DNA of 64,000 nucleotides, from positions 7,602,501 through 7,666,500 of the forward strand of contig NC_080577.1 of NCBI RefSeq assembly GCF_029962835.1, written 5' to 3'. A program made the translations under genes and the position numbers. Under the pieces are notes generated by a model that was given only the letters and a program-made list of their open reading frames with translations, was not told the origin of the DNA and did no database searches. Positions within the stretch are counted from its first letter, which is position 1; every line of letters starts with the position of its first letter. The DNA comes from Magnolia sinica. Its lineage: Eukaryota > Streptophyta > Magnoliopsida > Magnoliales > Magnoliaceae. Positions 1 to 57,893 of the stretch are shown piece after piece.

Positions 1-775
1 CAAATTTCAACCGTTCGATCCCTGTGAAAGTGGCCTAACGGACAAATTAGCCCCTAAAATCCAGATTATGGGCCCACCTGCAATCTGGATATGCCTCAAA
101 TTTAGTCCCAACGGTTAAAAAAATATAAGAAAAGAGATAGACGGAACGGATTGTATATATACATCACGATGGATCCCACATGGCCAGTGCGTGTACACCA
201 TGTGCATGGCCATAAAAACCAAAAAAACGGGTCATCATGCGCTGACCCGTCTTCTTTGCGTTACCAGTTTCAGCGGACAGGCGTTCGTCAGTCAGTTTTC
301 ACCAGTGGGCCCCACTCATCATCCGTTTACAAGTTCTGGACCGTCCATCGCGTCCAGAGGGGAGGCTGGACCCCCGCCTAGGTGTCCTTCTATTCCCATG
401 CATGCACACACGTATAAATAGCGATCAAACGCAGGATGGACGGTGAAAGAAAAAATTGAATGGGCCGAACCAAAAGACTTACAGAAATACCCTTTTCCAG
501 TTAGTTTTTCGAGAGGAACGCAATGAACGGATTGAATTTTCCTTCTGAGGTCAATCTGGGACCCACCAGCCATCACAGCGCTAAATGCGCAGGCTCTGTT
601 TCGCAACAGAGCCTGTGGACGAATCTTGTGGGCCACCATCGTACATCAACGGTTTGATCCAGACCGTCCAAGAGAGTCCCTCATTCCATCTCATTCACGC
701 CTAGGTGACGGACTTGAAAAAGACAATGACGATTGGTTTTCAACCGTTCAAATGCCCAGTAGACGTCACCAAGAA
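1..775. other. Intergenic stretch, no gene seen
   Basis: No exon-like reading frame or RNA gene is recognisable. Short open frames here lack any family signature. Phrases such as 'gggcccacc' and 'gaccgtcc' recur, as in the degraded palindromic repeats found throughout the window. The last five bases, AAGAA at 771-775, are the left target duplication of the solo LTR that follows. Confidence 0.6.
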
Positions 776-3700
776 TGTAATGACCCGAAAAATTTCGTGC
801 CAAGACCCAAGTACTACCTCTATTTTCCTTAGAAGTTATTTGTGAGTTAATTAGCGTTAAATTCGATTACTTGTGAAATTAGCATCAATCACTTTAAATT
901 TGATCTGCAGGGCTCAAAACCTGTAGACTCGTTAGCGCTATGTTACTCTGAAATCTGGGATTCAACGCTAAATCCAGTTGCTCTTGGGAACTTTTAGAAG
1001 CTTTGGATCGGACCTAGACCGCGCGTCGAAAGTCTGATAGCGATTATCTTAGACAGTTATGGTCACCATGTTGGACTTGACCATCACCTCAAAAATCAAG
1101 TCCAGATAATGTCCTGGGTCGATTTGATTGAGTCCGGAGTAAAGAGTGTGAGAACGGTGAGAAATTAAATATAATTTTATGAAATCTGAGTCATGTCGCT
1201 TGCGCGACGATTTTAAGCAATCTGACCGTTGGATTCTGACCCAATTTCACCATCGGATCAGGGAAGATGGCTCAGGCATGTCATAGTGCTTGTGGACCTA
1301 ATCGAGATTCGGTAACCGTTGAATTGAGTGTAGTCCGCCACGGCTGATCTGTAAATTTGATCGGTACGAAAACTCAGCCAGACCTAGATCCATGGTCAAT
1401 GAGTTTAAGTCCGACCGCACGTGGAGAAAGGACCACCGAAAGTACTCCGTTGGATCGAGAGAGGCTTAATTTGGTTATAACCTAAGTATACCTTGGCCCT
1501 GGGGCTATTTTCACCAATGTTAGGCCTATATAAAGACCTTAAAACCCTCACTCTCTCTTCCATACGAATTTCCTAACCCTACCTAAGAAAGAGAGAGGAA
1601 AAGAGAGAGAGTGAGAGAAAAGTTAGTGAATCATCATAAGATTCTTTCCTGTTACTCTACATCCTTAAACCATCACTTTTGAATCGTTATTCCAGCGATT
1701 CTAAGTTCCTTCTTGGGTAAGTGAATCTAACCCTAATCTGTTTGGAGCTTAGAATAGTTTATGTGTTGATGTAGCTCATTTCTATTCTTGCCTTAGGTTA
1801 TCTAGTCGCCGTTGACGAAGACATATCGTCTAAATCAGTTCGCTGTGCTTTTTCTGGTTTAAGGTGCGGACTATATTCGTATAGGTTATGGTTTTCAAGG
1901 CTTTCAATGTCAGTTAATGGTTTATTCTTGTTATGGGTGCAATTTCACATGTCAAATGCTATGTTTATTTTGCATTCCTGATATGTATGTGTTATATTGA
2001 GATTTGTGTATTCTATGTATATGTATGAAGTATCGTATACGTATAAAATATGAACATGTATTTGCCATGATATTTGTCGTGTACTTGTGCTAATTGTATG
2101 TGTGTCAACTCCTTGGCAAAAGGAATTATCCAAATGCGTGTATTCCAACATACGTCATATATGTTGAACTATGTAGTCTAAGTGTTTGTAGAAATGTCTA
2201 AATGGTTTAAAGTGTAATATATTATCCTATTTGCGGGCGTTGAGAAGCGATTCTCAACTCTCCTATTGGTGTGTATGATTTCCTACATGCAAGTCACATT
2301 CTTTGTTGTTTAACTTCAAGTATTACTTATGTGTAAATCCATGTTAAGTTGATATTCTTCAAATGCTCACATACTACATGATTTGAATTGTTGTTCCATT
2401 ACTGTTCTAAATTGTATATGCATAGCTGTTATAATGGAATGTGTTTGGGACTATGAAATAGTCCAAGAAATCGGTAATCGGCCTTGAGTTCGTGGCTAAG
2501 GTTGCTTTCGCCATGAAGGACGTGATTTTACGAACCCGAGTCGTATTAGAGTTGTCGGCAGTGGTTTGGCCACACGGAGTGTTTGTGCACTCTATGTTGT
2601 TCAATCCAACGTGCGCTTGTGCTAGTCGAGTTCGTCAAGTAACCCGATTGTCCAATGTATGTTCACCATGTATGGACACTATTGTTTGAATCTAGGATAC
2701 CAAACTTACCGATGAAATCCCGTTAACCGTTGTACCTTGATCCGCTAAGACTCATGAGCCGGACATGGTGGTATGGGACACCGTGGTCGAGCTGTCGGCT
2801 TACGCTGGGGTGACGAGCCTCCCCGTAGTGACCAGTGAGCACACCAGACTCGTGAGCCGATTATGGTGGTATGGGACACTATATTCGTGCTGTCGGCCTA
2901 CATTGATTGGTGACGAGCACTTTGTAGTGACCTCGAGCATACCTTGATACTGCATTAGGGCGACGAGCCTTAGAGTAGTAACGAAGGTATGATAGGCGTG
3001 CATTGATGGGTGACGAGTCCTTTACAGCGACCTAAAACCATATGATCATATGAGATGGCCTAGGACTGACGACCCTAGAATGGATCACTGTGTGGAAATT
3101 GATATGAGAAAGGTACCTTAGCTTCCCAATCCTGCTGTATGAAAAGGACTAATAATAACTTGGTAATCATGTTCATGCACCGCATTTGCATGTGTGTGGA
3201 AGTCGTTGGCACTGCAGGAGGATATCATGCATAACGTAAGATAAAGACACTGAAGGAGTAAGGCGAGGGCATGCATCATTTATACATACATCCTTGCATT
3301 AACAAGAGTACTTTAGACTTGTTTAATTGTATTGCCTTACCATTACTGCTTAATTGATTTGATATCATGTTAACTTTTACGGTATTGTTCCACTGAGTTG
3401 ATCACTCACTCCCACGTTCTGGGGTGGTGTTTAAACACCAACCAGACTCTGTCTTAGATGCAGATGTTGACGCGTCCCCTAAGGCAGAGCAGGAGTTCGA
3501 GGATGATGAGGCCGTGTTTTCTTTTATACAGTTCTCAGGCGGGTTCTCGTGAGCCATGTCCTGATATATATGCGGGGATTCTGGGTTTTCCTTATAATTG
3601 CACTAGATGATGTCATTTAATACTTGTAATTTGAATATAAACACTTGTAAGTATGACCTGGCATGTATACGTATTTCAAGGACTTGCACATGTACACATA

Positions 3701-3889
3701 TGTTTCTTTAAGTCTTCCGCTTGCGTCTTTCACTTATCCCTGAATTATGTTTGCAGTTTGGCTTAATCTATTTCATGTTTTATGTACTCTTACAGACAAC
3801 ATACATCCATCATTAAATATGTTGCATAAGTGATGTTTTGAAACTCGGGAGCTGAGTTATGCTCGACCCCCGAATTTCAGGGCGTTACA
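776..3889 (+). mobile_element. Solo LTR of an LTR retrotransposon (probably Ty3/Gypsy)
   Basis: A 3,114-bp block begins TGTAATGACCCG and ends GGGCGTTACA (TG...CA ends). It is flanked by identical 5-bp repeats AAGAA at 771-775 and 3890-3894, as expected for LTR-retrotransposon integration. No internal retrotransposon genes follow, so it is best read as a solo LTR left by LTR-LTR recombination. A TATA-like TATATAAA at 1527-1534, followed by a CT/GA-rich leader, suggests the promoter and plus orientation. A 98-bp tandem duplication lies inside. The length suggests a Gypsy family with very long LTRs; the family call is inference. Age cannot be estimated without a partner LTR. The intact target repeats argue that the insertion is not extremely old. 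Confidence 0.85.
2751..2946 (+). repeat. 98-bp tandem duplication inside the solo LTR
   Basis: Two diverged units begin CTCATGAGCC (2751) and CTCGTGAGCC (2849). Both contain TGGTGGTATGGGACAC, a 'ctgtcggc' block and a 'gtgacgagc' block. A third, weaker 'gacgagcc' echo follows to about 3070. It lies in the part of the LTR downstream of the TATA-like box. Confidence 0.75.
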
Positions 3890-3894
3890 AAGAA

Positions 3895-5015
3895 AGAGTC
3901 CGTGGGCCACACCAAATCGGAGCCAAAATCAACATATCTGATTGGATTTTCGAGCCGCATCCTATGGAAGGAGTAGATTTTTCCATCGACTGCAATTGAA
4001 GAACCAACGCACGTATCTTATGTTGCTGATGCGTAAAACGTCTGCACCTGCTGTGCGTAAAGAAGACGCCATCTTCACCGCTTCTCTATGCGGAAGTTCT
4101 CACCGACCGACTTGTTTGTGTTATAAAGAGGAGAAGCTTGTAGCACCAAAGGAGGGCTGGAAGGAGGGATTCCAAGGGGAAGCTTGGCTTGGCTGGACGT
4201 GAAGCAAAAGAGCAGAGAGAGAGTTGTTGAATTTTTATTTGTTTAATTCTTTTTTTTCCATGATTATTTTTGAGAGATTTAACCCCATCATGTTGGGCTA
4301 AACCTCTTAGCTAGGGCTAAGAGGTGAAGCTTGTAGCGTGATGGGGAGACTTGTTGTTTATGCCTTTTTGTTTAAATTGAATTGAACTTGATACCAGTTT
4401 AATTAAGGAAATGTTTTCAGTTTTTAATGGTCTGTTGTGACTAAAATTACAACGGGTCTACAATAATTTTGAGCATATTCCCTTCCTTCTTTTGATTATG
4501 ATATCAGGAAGCCCTGCTGTTCACCATCGTCTCCTTGGCATGGTTGGATGACAAAACCTTTCCTAACCCTCATATCATGTTGATTGATTTTAATTAGTTT
4601 AATTCCGTTGTTTACTTTGTCTCCTGGGCATGGTTTGGTAATGAAATCCATTTTAATTCATATACCTTTCATCTCTTGAAAACTATATCAAAAGAAGTTC
4701 AGTTGATTTTCATGGTTACACCCTTCATTAGATAAAGATGAGACTATAAGTCCAGTTGAGTTCTTGAAACAGGCATAAGATCCCCCTGATCTCTACAAGT
4801 GGATCCTCTGAATCCCTAGTTTCCTACCTTTGAATTCTTTAAGTTTTAAATTAATATTTCACCATTATTTTCTCAAATTCATTCGATTTAGATTTCATCT
4901 TAGTCTAGTTCTAGTCCTACTTAGTTTCAGATTATGTACAGGTTTCAATCCATTGGGATTCGACCTAGGTCTCACCGAGTTTATTACTACATCACAACCC
5001 TATACTTGGGGAGTG
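3895..5015 (+). mobile_element. LTR-like remnant, Ty3/Gypsy type
   Basis: No gene is seen. The stretch ends in a block reading GGGATTCGACCTAGGTCTCA (4958-4977), followed by 'accgagtttattactacatc' and 'acttggggagtgaaca'. This resembles the 3' end of LTRs from Athila/Tat-like plant Gypsy elements as I remember them. The body is AT-rich with 'cctaaccctcatatcatg'-type text and no coding frame. The left boundary is unresolved. It abuts the solo LTR's right target repeat at one end and the Harbinger Myb-like fragment at the other. It is a broken remnant. Confidence 0.4.
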
Positions 5016-5029
5016 AACAATAGTCACAT

Positions 5030-5300
5030 GTGTATGTTTTGTTACCACATCAGCCGCTACTTGATACGCTTCTCTCTTGAAGCCATTGTCTGCTTTTCAT
5101 CCCATTACAATTTGTTCCATTAAAGTGTCAAATAGTACTTCATCCATTGGTTTAGTCCATTTGACCTTCGCTACCCGGGACAATGGTTCTGCAAGTGATT
5201 TCATCGTCTTCTCACGAGGTGAACTTCGAGTTGGTGTCACTACAGACCTAATTGGTGACTGTATCGGTGTCGATGCATCGATAGGTGAAGAAATCGACAT
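5030..5300 (-). pseudogene. PIF/Harbinger ORF1 remnant (Myb/SANT-like DNA-binding protein)
   Basis: Read on the minus strand from 5300, the translation starts MSISSPIDASTP and reaches KVKWTKPMDEVLFDTLMEQ. This is the start of the Myb/SANT-like domain found in ORF1 proteins of plant PIF/Harbinger transposons, which help the transposase bind termini and enter the nucleus. After one in-frame TGA at about 5094 the same frame continues KADNGFKREAYQVAADVV, the expected next part of the domain. The piece then runs into LTR-like sequence near 5015, so it is truncated. It lies about 200 bp downstream of the transposase remnant on the same strand, consistent with one two-gene element. Confidence in the domain is good; the element's termini were not found. 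Confidence 0.65.
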
Positions 5301-5510
5301 TGGACCTACGCATATGACGCACAGTTACATGTTGCATCGATGCATTTTTTAAGGTAACACAAATTAATTTTTAAAAAAAGAATGTCTATAACCTGGTTAT
5401 CAAAATAGAAAATGTTGTATAATTTCAAGACACTTAATAGTATTTCCTTTATTCATGCATACTTTGTGCTACATTAATCAAAACATTCATATATTAAGAG
5501 ATATAATACG

Positions 5511-6900
5511 CTATCTAGTCCTACTATTTTGTTGTGAATCTACCCACATCAGTCGCGCAATATCATCTCGCACTCTAACCCACACTTCTTTCTCTCTTTG
5601 AGTGGTTCGAAGTAACCATTGGCTTTCATCGTTTGTTAAGACTTCATGTGGTGTAAGGTTATTATCCACATCATTTACTGGTATATCCGAATCTTGTAGA
5701 TCTTGATGATTCTGACAATTTGATCGTATGAAATTGTGCAAGACACAACAAACTATCATAATTTTCACTTGTGTATAGAAGGGATACTGAATCGCCATTT
5801 TCAAAATCAGAAATCTGGCCTTAATTACGCCGAAACAACTTTCTATGGCATTGCGTAGCTGCTCATGTCGATAGTTAAGTAGCTCCTTCATGTTTGCTGG
5901 TGCTCTCCCAGTTCGATACTCTTTCAAATGGTATCTAACTCCCATGGTAAGGAGCTATAAATCCTAGTGAATGAGCATATCCAGCATTGACGACGTAATA
6001 CTTGCCTACACATTTAAATGATGGCTTTATTAAGGGTCCACTCGAAGCATGATTTCGTAAAGAAAAGTAGGTAAAATGGTTAAGATCACTAAGGACTACC
6101 AGTTGGAACAATCAAATGATCATTAGTGCGACTCAGAGCATTGTGTAGCACCCTCACGTCTAAGGCAGAACCTTCCAACCTGACCAATACATATAAAATC
6201 TTCATATCAAATGAACACGCCGCTGTACGTTTTGAGACAAGACACCTTTCCTGTTGCAGAAACTGACATGTGTCCCATCAATTGTGCCAACACAATCCTA
6301 GTTGCATTTTATGACATTTCAAAAGGCAGAAGAATGCATTTGAATAGTTGTGTATGAACAATGATATATAAAAAATAAACCTTAAGTGATAATATGATAC
6401 CGCCCAATTTAAGTTTGTTTGAATCTCAACGGGTGTCTCTTGTCTGGTTTGATTAACGTAATGAGGATATAGTGACACCAATACATCTAGTACGCGGTTA
6501 AAATGGCGGCTTACGGTTTCACCCGATCAAATGAATCTGTGTCCTATCACCCGATTTTGAACGTTATGACCAACTGTGTGTAGGAAAATAACAAGTTGTT
6601 CTTCTAGACTGATGTAACGAGTATCTGTAAGATATGTCTTCTCGCATATTTCATTACATAGTGCAAAAAATGCTTCCCAACTCATTCTTAGTTGAGTAAA
6701 ACAATCCCGGTCACTGGACCGAATGATTGAGTTTATAAACCACGCCCGTTCATCCTCTCTGTGACGTGCCGACTATTTGAACATGTAATCTCGACAGTAT
6801 TCGCCTACCGCGGCCACGCAAGCTGCTATTGCTTGCATAACAATGGTTCTTTCCATTTCTTCATCCTCTTCACTATCCACATTGAGGACTGGATCACTTA
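5511..6900 (-). pseudogene. PIF/Harbinger transposase remnant (DDE superfamily, HARBI1-like)
   Basis: On the minus strand the family blocks appear in order. The N-terminal helix-turn-helix region lies near 6780-6480 (LRMSWEAFFALC, LVIFLHTVGHNVQNRVIGH, ETVSRHFNRVLDVLVSLYPH). DCVGTIDGTHV with the first catalytic Asp is near 6290. LEGSALDVRVLHNAL carries another conserved acidic residue. KYYVVNAGYAHSLGFIAPYH is near 6010-5945, and a clean C-terminal frame (5945-5511) contains RYHLKEY, SCFGVIKARFLILK and VCCVLHNFI. The gene is dead. An Arg codon before SGETV reads TGA, an extra G at about 5943 shifts the frame between APYHG and VRYHL, other stops occur, and the usual VDAGY is VNAGY. Family members move DNA by cut-and-paste with 3-bp TTA/TAA target duplications. 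The partner ORF1 remnant lies just downstream. Confidence 0.85.
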
Positions 6901-9442
6901 CACTTAGCTGTGGGAAGTTGTGTTTAATATAAATCACTAGTCTTTTTCATATGACCAATATCAATAATCCTTAAATATTCTAGTGTCCATACAATATTTA
7001 TTAAGCACTCATCTTGGAGATACTATTGTGATGGAATGGTGGGATTGAGAATGATGTAGAGAGTAGTTCTCGATAGAACTATTCATTTTTCGAAATGAAC
7101 CAAAATTGGAGAAAAAATAATAATAAATTTGGGACTTCATCCGTGTGTACCTAATTGGGATCTCATCCCTACTAAGGACTCGATTTGTACAATGTTTCAA
7201 CCTAGGAGATCCTACTGAATGCTTCATTCAAAGTGAGACCCACCATAACATAAGCCCTGATCACTGAACCATGGAACTCGCTTGTACAACTAAAAACCAA
7301 GTGAAGCCATGCCGATGATTTGGGGGCGTTTGCATGAAATCATCAGTTGCATCTCTGGCCTTTTTGTCTTGTCTACACTAGTTCAGTTAGATTGCATTCT
7401 ATGCCATTAGTTGACCTTTAATTAGACATTACCTGCCGTTTCCATTGACAAGAATGCATAAATTTAAAGAAAATAAAAAAACAAAACAAACAAACATTGG
7501 AAAATAACATTATCATGGGTCGTCCTATTCCTTCAAGGATATTAACCATGCTACAGAGGTAAACCCCTATCATTACTTTCTTGTTTCCTATTTCGACTTT
7601 CAACATTTGGGTAACTACAATAACAAACATTCTGAAATGAGATACAAACAACATCCATTTCTCTCACAACTACAGATTCGAGACATGGTTTGTGCCAAAT
7701 CAAAGTGTTATTCTCATGTCCTAGACTTGCATTGGGCAATCATAAGGAAAAAGGAAGTCATTTGCAATGACATTATCATTTCTTACAGACAATTAAGTAA
7801 TTCATTCCATTGTTCCCTTAAGTGACAAGCAATGGTAGCTGAACAGGTTGCACAAGTGCCAGCTATCAAAGTGTCTTGCATGGCGGTAAACTCCCTGATT
7901 GTAAACACATGGGCACTTCCTTAAATGCATATTTAATAAATAAACGAATTGATGAAATAAAGAAAAGATGCCTTTAAAAAATATATATGAAATACAGAAA
8001 AGAAAACAATTGAAAATGAGCATTCATTTAGTACCAACCAAAACCAATTAGCAGTGTCCTGAACACTAAAAAATAATCAATAACTTAAACTTGGAAAATC
8101 ATACAATAATTATCCATAGAAATAGTAGTTTGTTAGGAAAAATCCAGAGATCCCAGTGAGAAAACATAACAAAATGACTTAGAATTATTTGTTATATCGA
8201 TTGACCAAAATTATTTATCATGACTTGGAGCAACATAACAAGAAGAGATCCCGTGGTGTATGACCAAAATTATCATAGAATACAAAGTTTTTTCAGTTTC
8301 CCCGACAATGCATGGGTACAGATTTCCATAAAAAGATTCTAAAAATTGTAAAACAGAGAAAATTCATATGTATTATTCTGAACTCCAAAATTGGGCATTT
8401 ATGTATTGTACTGGCAAGGAGCTATTTCATGTCCACGTGACAAACCATTGAAATACTTCAAAGAACCAAGTTCAAGCTTGAATCCTACTTTAAGTTCTTG
8501 AAGGTCATTGACAACAAATTAAGACCACATACAGTGAAGAGTAGAAACAAGAAACTATATGCAAAAAACCGTTTTGTGCTTTGTACAATTTACCAATAAG
8601 AGAAACATGCTCAGCTGCAAATATTAATCAATTAGGTCCTTCAATCAATATTAATTGACAATTACAGATTGATCAATTCGAAGCAAAGCTTCTTTCACTT
8701 TAAGTGATTAATAACTATAAAGTAACAAATTTCTAACAACTACTTGAATGCAACAAAACATGCATTTGAAATAACCATATGGTCTTCCAAACAACAATTA
8801 GTTCCAAACAGCATACCCAGTTCCAAACATATCCGATCTTTCTATCTGTCCGGCCTTGCTGTTCATAGTCATTGGTCTAAAAACAAGTCATCTTGTTCCT
8901 CACATGGGCCACACCATACAAAAGAATGGCCAAAACAATTCTTTCTAGCAATAATTTTTTGTACATCCAGTCCATTTGAGAATACATCTAGAACGCCAGG
9001 CCCACCGTTACCCACATGATGGAAAGCTTGGATCTCACACATGCATCTGATGTTAGCATGCGTGCTTGCATGTGGATGGACAGGGCTCTATAGGCGTGTG
9101 GGCTTAGGAAACTTGTTAGTGGTGGGCAATGAGATCGATGTCCCAACTACTAAGACAATTTCAGGCAAGAAAAATGGTTTATAAAATCCAAACCTCCTGG
9201 CAGTTATTGTGATTTACCCAACCAATTATCAAGACCTCAATTTATATAAATTGGGTCATCTTGGTCATGTGGAGCATTTTCATGATAAATGGTTTCCAAT
9301 TCCTCAAAAGAAGTTGAAAATTCCAATCCAGCAGTGAACCCACCCAAAAATTGATTTCAAGACATGTTTATCAACAAAAACGGGGCACAAACACAACAAA
9401 GGTTGCAAATCCCCATTTTCTATGAGTTGGTTCGGATACCTA
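6901..9442. other. AT-rich intergenic stretch, no gene seen
   Basis: Roughly 2.5 kb without a recognisable exon, RNA gene or transposon core on either strand. Open frames up to 91 codons occur but show no motif. A 'GGGGGCGTTTGCATG' near 7321 and 'GGCCAAACACGCCCTAAA' near 9890 look like MITE-type ends, but I could not pair them convincingly. Confidence 0.5.
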
Positions 9443-13837: not shown

Positions 13838-13910
13838 TCCGTTGTAGTCTAGTTGGTTAGGATATTCGGCTTTCACCCGAAAGACCCGGGTTCGACTCCC
13901 GCCAACGGAA
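13838..13910 (+). tRNA. tRNA-Glu (anticodon TTC), nuclear type
   Basis: A 73-nt cloverleaf can be folded. The acceptor stem TCCGTTG pairs with CAACGGA. The A box is TAGTCTAGTTGG and the B box GGTTCGACTCC. The anticodon stem-loop is TTCGG CTTTCAC CCGAA, with anticodon TTC, so it would decode GAA/GAG as glutamate. No intron is present. One flaw is a C:C mismatch at the base of the T stem (CCGGG opposite CCCGC). T-runs that could act as a Pol III terminator follow from about 13918. Two decayed relatives sit at 38441-38511 and 38589-38654. It is probably a working gene, but the mismatch and the repeat setting leave some doubt. Confidence 0.75.
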
Positions 13911-14085
13911 AAAAATTTTGGTGTTTTTTTGTTTTTTTTTCTTGGTGGACGGCTGGGATTCGTTTTTTTCCTCTGTTGATTTTTTTTGGTTTTTTTTTTT
14001 TTGTGGACGGCTGGGATTCGTTTTTTTTCCTCTGTTGAATCTCCGTATCATTCATGCACGCATCTCATGTGGTAGATGTATGCAA
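13911..14085 (+). repeat. T-rich repeated tail after tRNA-Glu; uninterrupted relative of the MULE target
   Basis: Two copies of a unit with 'ggacggctgggattcg' plus a T-run plus 'cctctgttga' follow the tRNA, then 'atctcatgtgg'. The same sequence flanks the foldback element at 38749-44506, split exactly at its TTCGTTTTT target duplication. This copy therefore shows what that site looked like before insertion. Confidence 0.8.
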
Positions 14086-38588: not shown

Positions 38589-38654
38589 TCCGTTGTAGTC
38601 TAGTTGGTTAGGATATTCGGCTGAACGACCCGGGTTCGAGTCCCGGCAACGGAA
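38589..38654 (+). pseudogene. tRNA-Glu copy lacking the anticodon
   Basis: 'tccgttgtagtctagttggt' and 'gacccgggttcgagtcccgg' 'caacgga' match the gene at 13838 and even keep the better T stem (CCGGG/CCCGG). The anticodon region reads 'ttcggctgaacgac', lacking 7-8 nt that include TTC. It cannot decode. T-rich sequence and the foldback MULE follow 95 bp later. Confidence 0.8.
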
Positions 38655-39779
38655 ATTTTTTGTTTTTATACAGTCGACGGGTTTCTTTTACATGGACGGC
38701 TGAGATTCGTTTTTTTGTTTTTTTGGTGGACGGCTGGGATTCGTTTTTGAGAAATTTATGACTGTACGACCCATTTATGGCCCATTTACCCGAAGAAGCC
38801 CACCTCATTTTACCTTACCAGTATAAGCCCCAGCTGTACGGACGACTTGCCAAAGGTCGAAAGTGCTCCTGCTTTTTACTTCAAGCGGATCGGCTGGTGC
38901 TCGAAGACGAGCGCTGACGCTCCTCGACCTCCGAGTTGTACGAATGGTTCAAAAGAAATCAAAGTTACATGGCCCCACGGTTATGTATTTGTTATATCCA
39001 CAGCGTTCATCCATATTTCGAGATCATTTCGGTGCATTATCAATGACAAAAATCATATCCAAAGATCAACTGGACCACACCACAGAGAGCAGCAGAAAAT
39101 TGATTTTCACCGTTGAAACTTTTGTAGGGCCCACCATAACATTTATTTTCCATCCAAACTATTCATAAGGTCACAAAGACCGGGATGAAGTGGGAAAAAA
39201 AAATTCATAATGATCCAAAACTTCTGTAACCCTGAAAGGGTTTCAACGGTAGACGTTTACTATGGAATGGTAATCTCGTTTGCCACGGGCAGATCTATGG
39301 CTACGGTTATAATCCGTACCTATGCATACCCAATCCGTAGCCATAAAGGTCTATCCGGGGTGGGCTAACCGAACTAGTGGCCCCCGTGCCAGTTGCTGGC
39401 CTGTCCGGCGAGGCTATGCTAATCTGACGGCCCCTATGGCTACGGATTATAACCGTAGCTACAAACGGACCACAATCACAACAATATGTGCACTTTTTTT
39501 TTCTTTTTTTTCTTTTTTTTTTTACATGGAGAACTTTATTCTACCTACAATTTTCTCTAAGACATATTTATATAAATATATATAAGCATATAAAAAAATT
39601 TCTCTCTTTTTTTAAAAAAAATTTCTTTCTTTATTCATTTAACAAGAATATCTTCTAACTAAAATTAGTTACTTGATATACCCTATATGATTTTGGGTAG
39701 GAGAAGCTACTTTAACCAACTAACCTGGTTATTTTCCAAGATTCCATCTGGTTGATGGTCGAAAATCTATTTCATTCAC

Positions 39780-42700
39780 TTAGCGGTCAATTTCATTCAT
39801 TTCATTTACTTCGTGATCAATTCTATGCATTTCACGGTCAATTCCGACGATTCCGTTTTGATTCACAGTCATTTTCATGCATTTCACGGTTATTTCCCTT
39901 CACTTCACGGTCATTTTTATGCATTTCACGATCATTTCCCAACACTTCACGGTCATTTTCATGCATTTCATAGTCAATCCCGACGATTCCGTTTTGATTC
40001 ACGGTCATTTCCATGCATTTCACGGTCAATTCCCTTCACTTCATGGTCATTTCTATACATTTCACGGTCAATTCGCTTCACTTCACAGTCATTTCCATGC
40101 ATTTCACGGTCAATCCTGGCGATTCCGTTTTGATTCACGGTCATTTCCATGCATTTCATGGTCATTTCCCTTCACTTCATGGTCATTTTCATGCATTTCA
40201 CGGTCAATTCCCTTCACTTCACGATCATTTCCATGAATTTCACGGTCATTTCCATGCATTTCACGGTCATTCCCGGCGATTCCGTGTTGATTCACGGTCA
40301 TTTCAATGCATTTCACAGTCAATTACCTTCACTTCACGGTCATTTCCACGCATTTCACGGTCAATTCGCTTCACTTCACAGTCATTTCCATGCATTTCAC
40401 GGTCATTCCCGGCATGGAAATGATCGTGAAATGCGTGGAAATGACCGTGAATCAACACGGAATCGCACGGGACTGACCGTGAAAAGCATGGAAATAACTG
40501 TGAAGTGAAGCGAAATGACCGTGAAATGCGAGGAAATGACCGTGAAGTGAAGGGAATTGACCGTGCAATGCGTTGAAATGACCGTGAATCAACACGGAAT
40601 CACTGGGAATGACCGTGAAATGCATGGAAATGACCGTGAAGTGAAGCGAATTGACCGTGAAATGCGTGGAAATGACCGTGAAGTGAAGGGAATTGACCGT
40701 GAAATGCATGGAAATGATCATGAATCAACACGGAATCGCTGGGAATGACCGTGAAATGCATGGAAATGACCGTGAAGTGAAGCGAATTGACCATTAAATG
40801 TGTGGAAATGACCGTGAAGTGAAGGGAATTGATCGTGAAATGCATGGAAATGACCAAGAATCAACACGGAATTGCTGAGAATGACCGTGAAATGCATGTA
40901 AATGACTGTGAAGTGAAGCGAATTGATCGTGAAATGTGTGGAAATGACCGTGAAGTGAAAGGAATTGACCGTGAAATGCATGGAAATGACCGTGAATCAA
41001 CACGGAATCGCCGGGAATGACCGTGAAATGCATGGAAATGACCGTGAAGTGAAGCAAATTGAACGTGAAATGCATGGAAATGACCGTGAATCTAAATGGA
41101 ATCGCCGGAATTGACCGTGAAATGCATGAAAATGACCGTAAAGTGAAGCGAATTGACCATGAAATGCATGGAAATGACCGTGAAGTGAAGGGAATTGATC
41201 GTGAAATGCATGAAATGACCGTGAAGTGAAGGGAATTGACCGTGAAATGCATGGAAATAACCATGAAGTGAAGCGAATTGACCGTGAAATGCGTGGAAAT
41301 GACCATGAAGTGTAGGGAATTGACCGTGAAGTACATCGAAATGACCATGAATCTAAATGGAATCGTTGGAAATGACCGTGAAATGCATGGAAATGATCAT
41401 GAAGTGAAACGAATTGACCGTGAAGTGAAGAGAATTGATCGTGAAGTGCATCGAAATGACCGTGAATCTAAACGGAATCACTGGAAATGATCATGAAATA
41501 CATGGAAATGACTGTGATGTGAAGCAAATTGACTGTGAAATGCATGGAAATGGCCATGAAGTGATGATAATTGACCGTGAAGTGCATGGAAATGACCGTG
41601 AAATGCATGGAAATGACCGTGAAGTCAAGCAAATTGATCGTGAAATGCATGGAAATGACCGTGAAGTGAAGGGATTTGACTGTGAAGTCAATCATTTCCA
41701 CGCATTTCACGGTTAATTCGCTTCACTTCACGGTCATTTTCATGCATTTCATGGTCATTTCCTGCGATTCCGTTTAGATTCACGGTCATTTCCATGCACT
41801 TCACGGTCAATTCCCTTCACTTCATAGTCATTTCCATGTGTTTCACGGTCATTTCCAGCGATTCCGTTTCGATCCACGATCATTTCGATACACTTCACGG
41901 TTAATTCCCTTCACTTCACAGTCATTTTCATGCATTTCACGGTCAATTCGCTTCACTTCATGGTCATTTCCATGCATTTCACCGACAATTTCGACGATTC
42001 CGTTTACATTCATGGTCATTTTCATGCATTTCACGTTCAATTTGCTTCACTTCACGGTCATTTCCATGCATTTCATTGTCAATTCCCTTCACTTCATGGT
42101 CATTTCCACGCATTTCACGGTCAATTCACTTCACTTCACGGTCATTTTCATGCATTTCACGGTCATTCCTGGCGATTCTGAGTTGATTCACGGTCATTTC
42201 CATGCATTTCATGGTCAATTCCCTTTACTTCACGGTCATTTCTATGCATTTCATGGTCAATTCGCTTCACTTCACGGTCATTTCCATGCATTTCATGGTC
42301 ATTCCCGGTGATTCTATGTTGATTCACGGCCATTTCCATGCATTTCACGATTAATTCCCTTGATTGTCAATTCGCTTCACTTCACGGTCATTTCCATGCA
42401 TTTCACGGTCATATCCGGTGATTCTGTGTTGATTCACGGCCATTTCCATGCATTTCACGATTAATTCCCTTCACTTCACAGTCATTTTCACTTATTTCAC
42501 GGTCAATTCGCTTCACTTCATGGTCATTTCCATGCATTTCACAGTCATTCCCAGCGATTCCGTGTTGATTCACGGTCATTTCCACTCATTTCACGGCCAA
42601 TTCCTTTCGCTTCACGGTCATTTCCATGCATTTCACGGTCAATTCGCTTTACTTCACAGTCATTTCCATGCATTTCACGGTCATTCCCGACGATTCCGTG

Positions 42701-43480
42701 TTGATCCACGGCCATTTCCACACATGTACGTCATTCTCGACGATTCTGTGTTGATTCATGGTCATTTCCATGCTGGGAATGACCGTGAAATGTGTGGAAA
42801 TGACCGTGAAATGCGTGGAAATGATCGTGAATCAATACGAAATCGTCAGGAATGACTGTGAAATGACCATGAAGTGAAGCGAATTGACCATGAAATGCGT
42901 GGAAATGATCATGAAGTGAAGGGAATTGATCGTGAAATGCATTGAAATGATCGTGGATCAACACGGAATCGCCGAGAATGACCGTGAAATGCATGGAAAT
43001 GACCGTGAAGTGAAGCGAATTAACCGTGAAATTCGTGGAAATGACCGTGAAGTGAAGGGAATTGACCGTGAAATGCATGGAAATGACTGTGAATCAAAAC
43101 GAAATCGCCAGGATTGACCGTGAAATGCATGGAAATGACCGTGGAGTGAAGGGAATTGACCGTGAAATGCATGAAAATGACCATGAATCAAGACGGAATC
43201 GCGGGGATTGGCCATGAAATGCATGGAAATGACCGTGAAGTGAAGTGAATTGACCATAAAATGCACAGAAGTGACCGTGAATCAAAGCGGAATCACCGGG
43301 ATTGATCGTGAAATGCATGGAAATGACCGTGAAATGCATAAAAATGACCGTGAAGTGAAGGGAGTTGACCGTGAAATATATGGAAATGACTGTGAATCAA
43401 AGGGGAATCACCGAAATTGACCGTGAAATGCACGGAATTGATCACAAAGTAAATGAAATAAATGAAATTGACCACTAAGT
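39780..43480. repeat. 21-bp satellite array in four alternating-orientation blocks
   Basis: The unit is TTCACGGTCATTTCCATGCA plus one base. Alternating units differ in the second half (TTCACGGTCAATTCCCTTCA or ...GCTTCA). Every few units, a 31-32 bp variant carries 'cattcccggcgattccgtgt'. Blocks: plus 39780-40413, minus 40414-41690, plus 41691-42773, minus 42774-43480. Adjacent blocks are inverted copies able to form hairpins up to about 1 kb. Because 21 is a multiple of three and stops are absent in some phases, long open frames appear on both strands. They are not taken as genes. Confidence 0.92.
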
Positions 43481-43668
43481 GAATGAAATGGATTTTCAAC
43501 CATTAACCTGATGGAATCTTGAAAAATAACTAGGTTAGTTGGTTAAAGTGTCTTCTCTTACCCCAAAATCATATAGGGTACATCAAGTAACTAATTTTAA
43601 TTTAGAAGATATTTTTGTTAAATGAATAAAGAAAGAAATGAAAAAGAGAGAGAAAATTTTTTTATATG

Positions 43669-43671
<3 letters not shown>

Positions 43672-43734
<63 letters not shown>
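43672..43734. repeat. (TA)n microsatellite in the right arm of the foldback element
   Basis: About 63 bp of alternating A/T. The left arm has only a short, interrupted counterpart (39567-39590), so the run expanded after the arms formed. Confidence 0.95.
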
Positions 43735-43738
<4 letters not shown>

Positions 43739-44515
43739 TGTGTTAGAGAAAATTATAGGTAGAATAAAGTTCTCCATGAAAAAAATAATAATAAATTGTA
43801 AAAGCAGTCCGTCTATGGCTACGGTTGTAATCCGTAGCCATAAGGGCCTCCAGGTGCGCACGGCCCCACTGGACAAGCCAGATCTGGGGGCCGGACGGTC
43901 CTTTATGGCTATGGATAGACCATCTATTGCTACGGTTATAATCCGTAGCTATAGGTCTGTCCATATCATATGGCATTACCATTCTGCTTTGAACGGCCAC
44001 AGTTGAAATCCTTTTAAATGACACAAAAGTTTTTGATTATTATGAAATTTGTTTGTCCTCTTCATCCCAGTCTTTGTGACATTATTGATAGAATGGATGG
44101 AAAATAAATGTTATGGTGGGCCCTACAAAAGTTTCAACTATGAAAATCAATTTTCTGCTGCTCTTTGTGGTGTGGTCCAGTTGATCTTTTGGATATAATT
44201 TTTTCTTTTTTCTTTATAATGCTCCGAAATGATCTCGAAATATGAATGAACGTTGGGATATAATAAATATATGACTGTGGGGCCACGTAACGTTGATCTC
44301 TTTTGAACTGTTCGTACAACTCGGAGTTTGAGGAGCGTCAGCGCTCGTCGTCGAGCACCAGCCGATCCGCTTGAAGGAAAAAGCAGGACCATTTTCGACA
44401 TTCGGGAAGGCGTCCGTACAGCTGGGGCTTATTCTGGAAAGGGAAAATGAGGTGGGCCTCAACGTTTAAATGGGCCATAAATGGGTCGTACAGTGGGAAG
44501 TTTCTCTTCGTTTTT

Positions 44516-57289: not shown

Positions 57290-57800
57290 GGAAGCAGATT
57301 GGCTGGTGTAATGTTAACCAGTTCTATGGGTTTTATCACGAGGTATGTGTTATATCTAAATCGTTCATTCATTTAGCAATATCGTATTAAGGCTTAAGAC
57401 AAAAAATAAGATAGATTTAACTATTAAGTGGACCACACTACAGAAAGCAGTGGGGGATTGAACGTTTACCATTGAAACCCTTTTCAGGGTCACAGAAGTT
57501 TTGGATCAATATCAAATTTGTTTTTCCTCTTCATTCAGGTACTCGTGACCTTATGAACAGATTGGATGTAAAACAAACGTTATGGTGGGCCCATAAATTT
57601 TTTAATGGTGAAAATCATTATCTCCGCCAATATTTATGGTGTGGTCTAGATGATCTTTAGATATGATTTATTTTTTACATAATGCCCTAAAATCATCTCT
57701 AAAAATAGATGAACGATGTAGATATAATAAATACATCACTGTGGGGCCATGTAACTTTGATCTCCTTTGAACCGTTCTCACAGCTCAGAGCTCGAGGAGC
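57290..57800. repeat. Palindromic repeat related to the foldback MULE arms
   Basis: 'ggaccacactacagaaagca', 'aagttttggatcaatatcaa' and 'catgtaactttgatctcctt' 'tgaaccgtt' parallel the outer arms of the 38749-44506 element ('ggttcaaaagaaatcaaagt' 'tacatggcccc'). The same MITE family evidently contributed to those arms. Confidence 0.55.
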
Positions 57801-57893
57801 TCCGTGTTGTCTTCGCACGACATGTGCTAGAGCAGTTGGATGCATTTATAAAGCTTCTTCGAGAAGCTATGTAGGGCCATAGGGGAACAGATT

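Follow-up and report, generated by a model that had tools for sequence, protein, structure and literature searches.

A high-copy foldback transposon family with a strand-switching minisatellite core in Magnolia sinica, most likely moved by a Mutator-superfamily transposase

The stretch of DNA analysed here, called the window throughout, comprises 64,000 nucleotides of Magnolia sinica (contig NC_080577.1; C5:7602501-7666500), and it carries a foldback element of 5,758 bp at positions 38749-44506. The element begins with GAGAAA and ends with TTTCTC, as read from the letters directly and with a script. At the left boundary (38748/38749), TTCGTTTTT is followed by GAGAAATTT, and at the right boundary (44506/44507), TTTCTC is followed by TTCGTTTTT again. 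The two copies of TTCGTTTTT (38740..38748 and 44507..44515, both on the plus strand, the right one also read directly and by script) have the same letters and form a 9-bp target site duplication, which is single in a paralogous empty site of the same window. Each end of the element is a long terminal inverted repeat (TIR) of about 1 kb, the left arm at 38749..39760 (plus strand) and the right arm at 43490..44506 (minus strand). The arms are 84.2% identical over 961 aligned columns and differ by 81 transitions, 71 transversions and 166 gap columns, 47 of which belong to a longer slice on the right-hand side; the right arm also contains a (TA)n expansion at 43673-43739.

Several parts can be recognised within the arms. 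The outermost 35 bp of the left arm (38749..38783, plus strand) is a conserved terminal motif, the genome form of which is GAGAAATTTNNNACTGTACGACCCATTTATGGCCC, and the right end of the window copy (44472-44506) departs from this motif and starts with GAGAAACTT. Arm positions 222-509 (38970..39257, plus strand) are a segment of a dispersed repeat, which has 17 further matches in the window at 66-80% identity, most of them partial. Because this segment is mirrored in both arms, it probably entered the arm before the mirror layout became fixed, or else one arm received it from its partner. Another copy of the dispersed repeat (gggcccaccat...) at 57461-57815 is 80% identical to the arm segment and continues into arm-like sequence. 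Further inward, CTATGGCTACGG / CCGTAGC is the basis of two short hairpin-like copies (39288..39463, plus strand; direct-repeat family D4), which are mirrored in the right arm at 43806-43953.

The interior of the element consists of a 21-bp minisatellite within a composite unit of about 136 bp. A map of motif strands divides it into four blocks, in the order plus, minus, plus, minus. Block 1, with the minisatellite TTCACGGTCATTTCCATGCAT, lies at 39831..40410 (plus), block 2, with the same minisatellite, at 40416..41686 (minus), block 3 at 41706..42769 (plus) and block 4 at 42775..43427 (minus). The plus-to-minus junctions J1 (40396..40430) and J3 (42755..42789) are near reverse complements of each other, and the central minus-to-plus junction J2 (41672..41720), recognised by junction comparison, reads GGATTTGACTGTGAAGTCAATCATTTCC. 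A block was called at at least three motif matches with at most three mismatches each, and a shuffled control of one copy gave 0 minisatellite matches. The mirror symmetry extends through the core, and positions 1-4526 of the window copy align to positions 1-4690 of its own reverse complement at 77% identity. The GAGAAA ends, mirrored arms of about 1 kb, identical 9-bp TTCGTTTTT duplications and satellite-like, strand-switching middle given in a preliminary description of this stretch were all confirmed. Its statement that the element has no transposase holds for the two window frames tested (frames of at least 120 aa), neither of which has a Pfam match.

The site of the element is a site of insertion, since the same window holds a paralogous site that is empty. 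After a tRNA-Glu (TTC) gene at 13838-13910 comes a 58-bp T-rich repeat that is also found beside the element, and here TTCGTTTTT is present once. Flank alignment placed the unoccupied site in this tRNA-Glu-linked repeat at 13932..14035 (plus strand), and its second unit (13990-14038) aligns to the joined flanks of the element without a gap across the junction, with 47 of 49 positions identical. On the element side, a degraded tRNA-Glu-like paralogue at 38589-38654 adjoins the same 58-bp repeat, and the element was inserted in the flank of this paralogue. The degraded copy is matched by the Rfam tRNA model at 49.9 bits and is absent from the ARAGORN output.

The element belongs to a large family in the Magnolia sinica assembly (1,838,573,281 bases in 127 contigs). 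With the first 200 bp as query, the best 40 of 2,741 candidates were scored, and these 40 matches, window copy included, are 91-100% identical to it. The 35-bp end pattern has 495 exact copies in the genome, against 0 for the reversed pattern. Twenty of the other 39 scored matches were read as 10-kb stretches, and arms akin to those of the window are present at all 20 loci. Both ends are visible in ten of these stretches (L011, L014, L019, L020, L022, L023, L025, L026, L027 and L028) and one end only in the remaining ten, where the stretches of L010 and L015 overlap and have an interior of less than 5 kb. Together with L029 and L030, which were picked for having two facing ends, and the window copy, the ten loci make a set of 13 two-ended copies of 2.4 to 9.3 kb. 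End-to-end distances vary from 2.4 to 14.5 kb, and two sampled ones of 14.1 kb contain other sequence. The preliminary description had predicted other copies with these ends and a variable core length, and both were found.

The minisatellite occurs in 13 of the 13 two-ended copies. A core query gave 253 genome matches (the best 40 of 3,887 candidates being scored), and mirrored arm segments bound all three of the core loci that were fetched for lacking a listed end. The minisatellite core belongs to the element.

Target duplications and the orientation of neighbouring ends show how the two arms are related. Allowing an offset of at most 1 bp, the duplication matches at 9 of 9 positions in seven copies, at 8 of 9 in two and at 7 of 9 in two, so that 11 of the 13 two-ended copies have a duplication of at least 7 of 9 bp. 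None of 132 mispaired flanks reached 7 of 9 in a control with 12 copies, L020 being excluded. For orientation, three partly overlapping lists of ends were compared, namely the first 100 of the 495 exact ends (C1-C3), 100 of 186 GCG-type ends and 100 of 143 ACS-type ends. All seven neighbour pairs within 10 kb in the first list face inward, where random placement gives a mean of 0.23 pairs. Within 15 kb, the GCG-type ends form 21 inward pairs, 2 same-direction pairs and 0 outward pairs, and 8 of 8 pairs of ACS-type ends are inward, which makes 29 inward, 2 same-direction and no outward pairs for the last two lists together. MITEs (miniature inverted-repeat transposable elements) are short, about 100-800 bp, and all 13 two-ended copies exceed this size. 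Two independent MITE-like insertions that happen to face each other across a local satellite array would agree with the 16% difference between the window arms and with the abundant dispersed repeat, also found alone, that makes up part of the arm. Against this stand the same arrangement in all 13 two-ended copies, a single duplication around the whole unit in 11 of them, the zero outward-facing pairs among the listed ends and the sharing of J2 between copies. The tests of target duplication and pair orientation refuted two facing insertions, which we regard as extremely improbable. The preliminary description had named two findings that would speak against a single element, the lack of any other copy with these ends and a pair of facing MITEs; both were looked for and neither was obtained, and its single insertion unit is upheld by pair orientation, target duplications and shared core.

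A local palindrome produced by segmental inverted duplication, with no transposition, is likewise almost certainly wrong. It would agree with a unit that is palindromic from end to end and with a local duplication of an arm plus flank at L028, but the copies are dispersed at unrelated sites with differing 9-bp duplications, and the window contains the empty-site paralogue; for the family, this origin is refuted. At L028, a right flank of about 1.77 kb is found twice (3072-4843 and 5653-7415, turned so that the match is on the plus strand) with 96% identity. Each flank copy follows an element end with the duplication tagattcaa, and the locus is a local duplication of an arm end plus flank.

Core architecture was compared in 18 cores visible between both arms, omitting L009, L012, L013, L017, L018, L021 and L024, which are incomplete in the fetched stretch. 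Two-block cores occur in L010, L015, L019, L022, L026, L028 (inner copy), L030, L035, L036 and L037, four-block cores in the window copy, L011, L014, L025, L027 and L029, and an eight-block core in L023. Blocks of L029 were called at up to four mismatches, and at three it loses its first plus block. In 17 of the 18 cores, the first block is plus and the last is minus. The core architecture is inherited, because J2 of the window is near-identical in L009, L011 and L027, with 1-2 differences per 28 bp. The inner blocks of L023 contain a palindromic minus-to-plus junction three times, and therefore the switch points themselves get duplicated. In each of the seven elements tested, inverted self-matches span the full length, and in L029, which has a middle domain at the position of J2, the mirrored halves of about 3.9 kb are 84% identical.

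The arms carry a further record of descent. A clade of the arm tree with support 0.970 contains a single arm from each of the window copy, L011, L014, L027 and L028, and the partner arms lie elsewhere, so the two arms travelled together as a pair. In L011 and L027, the clade arm lies on the other side of J2 than in the window copy, a layout that probably arose when the mirrored arms recombined and the interior was flipped. When diagnostic sites are considered by arm segment, they give a mixed picture.

One subfamily, GCG-ended and with 186 exact ends, has extra sequence between core blocks, partly common to L029 (4900-5520), L031 (730-1510) and L032 (6023-7207). No Pfam match was obtained in the three middle-domain frames tested. 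The arms of L029, a member of this subfamily, are 96% identical, and the subfamily looks younger than that of the window.

The reading we favour, at a probability of roughly 0.86, is that of a high-copy, non-autonomous class II foldback family, most likely moved in trans by a transposase of the Mutator superfamily. The element was mobile in the past and is non-autonomous as far as the copies were read. Its assignment to the Mutator-like elements (MULEs) would rest on the 9-bp duplications, the long TIRs and the GAGAAA terminus, which we, like the preliminary description, take to be a MULE-type end. MULEs are described with duplications of 8-11 bp and TIRs commonly of hundreds of bp (PMC6446971). 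A duplication of this kind is found in 11 of the 13 two-ended copies, and the family has long arms with a conserved end; these two traits support the MULE-type call of the preliminary description. Long inverted repeats made largely of variable internal tandem repeats, the trait of the foldback class, are also present. For the captured gene fragment of Pack-MULEs, two frames of the window and three of the middle domain (each of at least 120 aa) were tested and gave no Pfam match, and the arms carry only part of a dispersed repeat.

Several observations weigh against this reading. None of the copies read contains a recognisable transposase gene with the GAGAAATTTNNNACTGTACGACCC ends. In the stretch of L016, an arm end is present and the core is not, and J2 differs in L014, L023 and L025. 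Two of the two-ended copies, L029 (5 of 9) and L020 (1 of 9), have no clear target duplication, and the core of L020, minus, plus, minus, is the sole exception among the 18 to the rule that plus comes first. The window copy is old, because its arms are only 84% identical, and nothing indicates present activity. L020 itself (501-7867, turned so that the match is on the plus strand) has two ends with unmatched flanks around its three blocks, and it may be a chimera of two copies; it resembles the chimeric copies without matching duplications that are reported for Galileo (PMC3573991).

A transposase from a different superfamily might instead move the same foldback family, as the P-type enzyme does for Galileo, in which case the 9-bp duplications and the GAGAAA ends would be coincidental. 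Convergence of superfamilies on a foldback build has been reported (PMC3169594; PMC3573991), and the search of MULE-domain places yielded no driver. Such a coincidence has to face complete duplications, within an offset of 1 bp, in seven of 13 copies, the agreement of duplications and TIRs with the MULE ranges (PMC6446971), and many open MULE-domain frames in the genome, though some of these are FAR1-type. We consider a driver of this other kind decidedly improbable.

The search for a driver covered two domains. For PF10551, the best 150 of 1,104 candidates were scored, 148 places were entered and 99 lie on C1-C12, the chromosomes with listed ends; for PF03108, the best 150 of 804 candidates were scored, and 106 places on C1-C12 were compared with the listed ends. 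One PF10551 place and one PF03108 place lie within 10 kb of a listed end, the latter being close to the chance expectation (mean 0.28, with some chromosome lengths rounded or guessed). The place at C12:44620985 was rejected, being 90% identical over 1.2 kb to a FAR1-type MULE frame of L034, without the core, and its likeness to the arms is limited to the common dispersed repeat and (TA)n. C8:30256750 is probably to be rejected as well, since the 4.5 kb read, which stop short of the 4 kb beside the end, lack the core and match the arms only in short pieces of the dispersed repeat. Both places look unrelated to the element. A match of roughly 65-75% between L033/L034 and the arms was dropped, as the matching segment is the repeat dispersed through the window. 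The 14.1-kb copies were considered as coding members and set aside, the stretches read consisting of core, middle domain (without a Pfam match in the frames tested) and other, apparently nested sequence. The coding MULE with shared ends expected in the preliminary description was thus not found among the places compared with the listed ends.

On the favoured reading, the transposase would bind the conserved terminal ~35 bp, possibly together with further arm sequence, and insertion would proceed by a staggered cut. The founder may have formed when template switching or inverted duplication produced a mirror copy of an arm that already carried the dispersed repeat and the minisatellite. The core arrays would then lengthen and shorten through slippage and unequal exchange, and recombination between mirrored arms would now and then flip the interior relative to the arms. 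A bolder idea, which we rate as unlikely, is that the whole interior has doubled again and again by self-primed hairpin copying, which would have left the even block counts (2, 4, 8) and a palindrome from end to end. In that event, a half-element hairpin would be copied across the switch point, and the element would lengthen by inverted doubling besides moving. The minisatellite would be the switching substrate, and the heritable interior flips (L011 and L027 against the window copy and L009) would arise as side effects.

On current views, the lengthening of ordinary TIRs has given rise to foldback transposons on several occasions. The FARE foldbacks of Arabidopsis, reportedly described by Windsor and Waddell in 2000, are likewise a plant foldback family, and we know of no strand-alternating minisatellite core in FARE. 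FARE is said to contain a MULE-domain transposase (PMC3169594), and FARE1 is classed with the MULEs (PMC4486113). Compared by structure and not by sequence, the magnolia family has the build of Drosophila FB, as the preliminary description had suggested, and it shares with FB, Tetris and Galileo long TIRs, internal tandem repeats, variable length and mostly non-coding copies. Tetris has duplications of 8-10 bp and no known driver (PMC4079207), and the TIR length of Galileo varies partly through tandem repeats (PMC3573991). In contrast to these three systems, the magnolia minisatellite fills the interior as 2, 4 or 8 blocks of alternating strand, and the window copy leaves little or no unpaired middle. 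The Tm1 Mutator/Foldback elements of root-knot nematodes are similar in their 9-bp duplications, composite TIRs and tandem repeats of variable number. They include MITE-like and coding members with a known Phantom-type transposase in an animal host, whereas their repeat units of about 14 bp sit inside the TIRs and the named elements are about 1-2.6 kb (PMC3169594). Plant MULEs with multiple long TIRs (Ferguson and Jiang, 2012) have duplicated TIRs and are still mobile, and their TIRs can acquire sequence (PMC3310237). However, those elements repeat whole TIRs, mostly in tandem, and the magnolia element repeats a 21-bp minisatellite between single arms.

Because plant foldbacks have already been described (FARE, Tnr8 and 'Foldback transposable elements in plants', cited in PMC3169594), the novelty lies in architecture and scale and not in kind, that is, in a high-copy plant family in which one minisatellite alternates strand between inherited junctions. 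The preliminary description knew of no described plant family with this architecture and inferred that it is new; FARE and Tnr8 run counter to this for foldbacks as such, and the strand-alternating core and the scale were not found described. The literature search gave no plant foldback with a strand-switching minisatellite core and no report of a foldback in Magnoliaceae, within open-licence literature, which is weak evidence of absence. The accessible portions of PMC9659126 and PMC2955051 name only Drosophila foldbacks.

The family, of which the window copy reads nearly the same on either strand, indicates that plants can build elements shaped like the foldback transposons of fruit flies. 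Where complete foldback copies have been described, their number may be very small, with three for Tetris (PMC4079207). In the magnolia family, insertions that can be dated, two arm lineages, switch junctions common to several copies and a middle-domain subfamily are preserved in a chromosome-scale genome, and a tree could give the order of the steps from a MULE end to a strand-alternating satellite palindrome. Palindromes of this kind would probably be sources of double-stranded RNA and of recombination.

Elsewhere on C5, fifteen places with a MuDR-type DNA-binding domain lie within about 0.5 Mb (C5:104687089-105198382), all on the plus strand and with open frames of 634-843 aa. Mutator-derived genes appear to be arrayed in tandem here.

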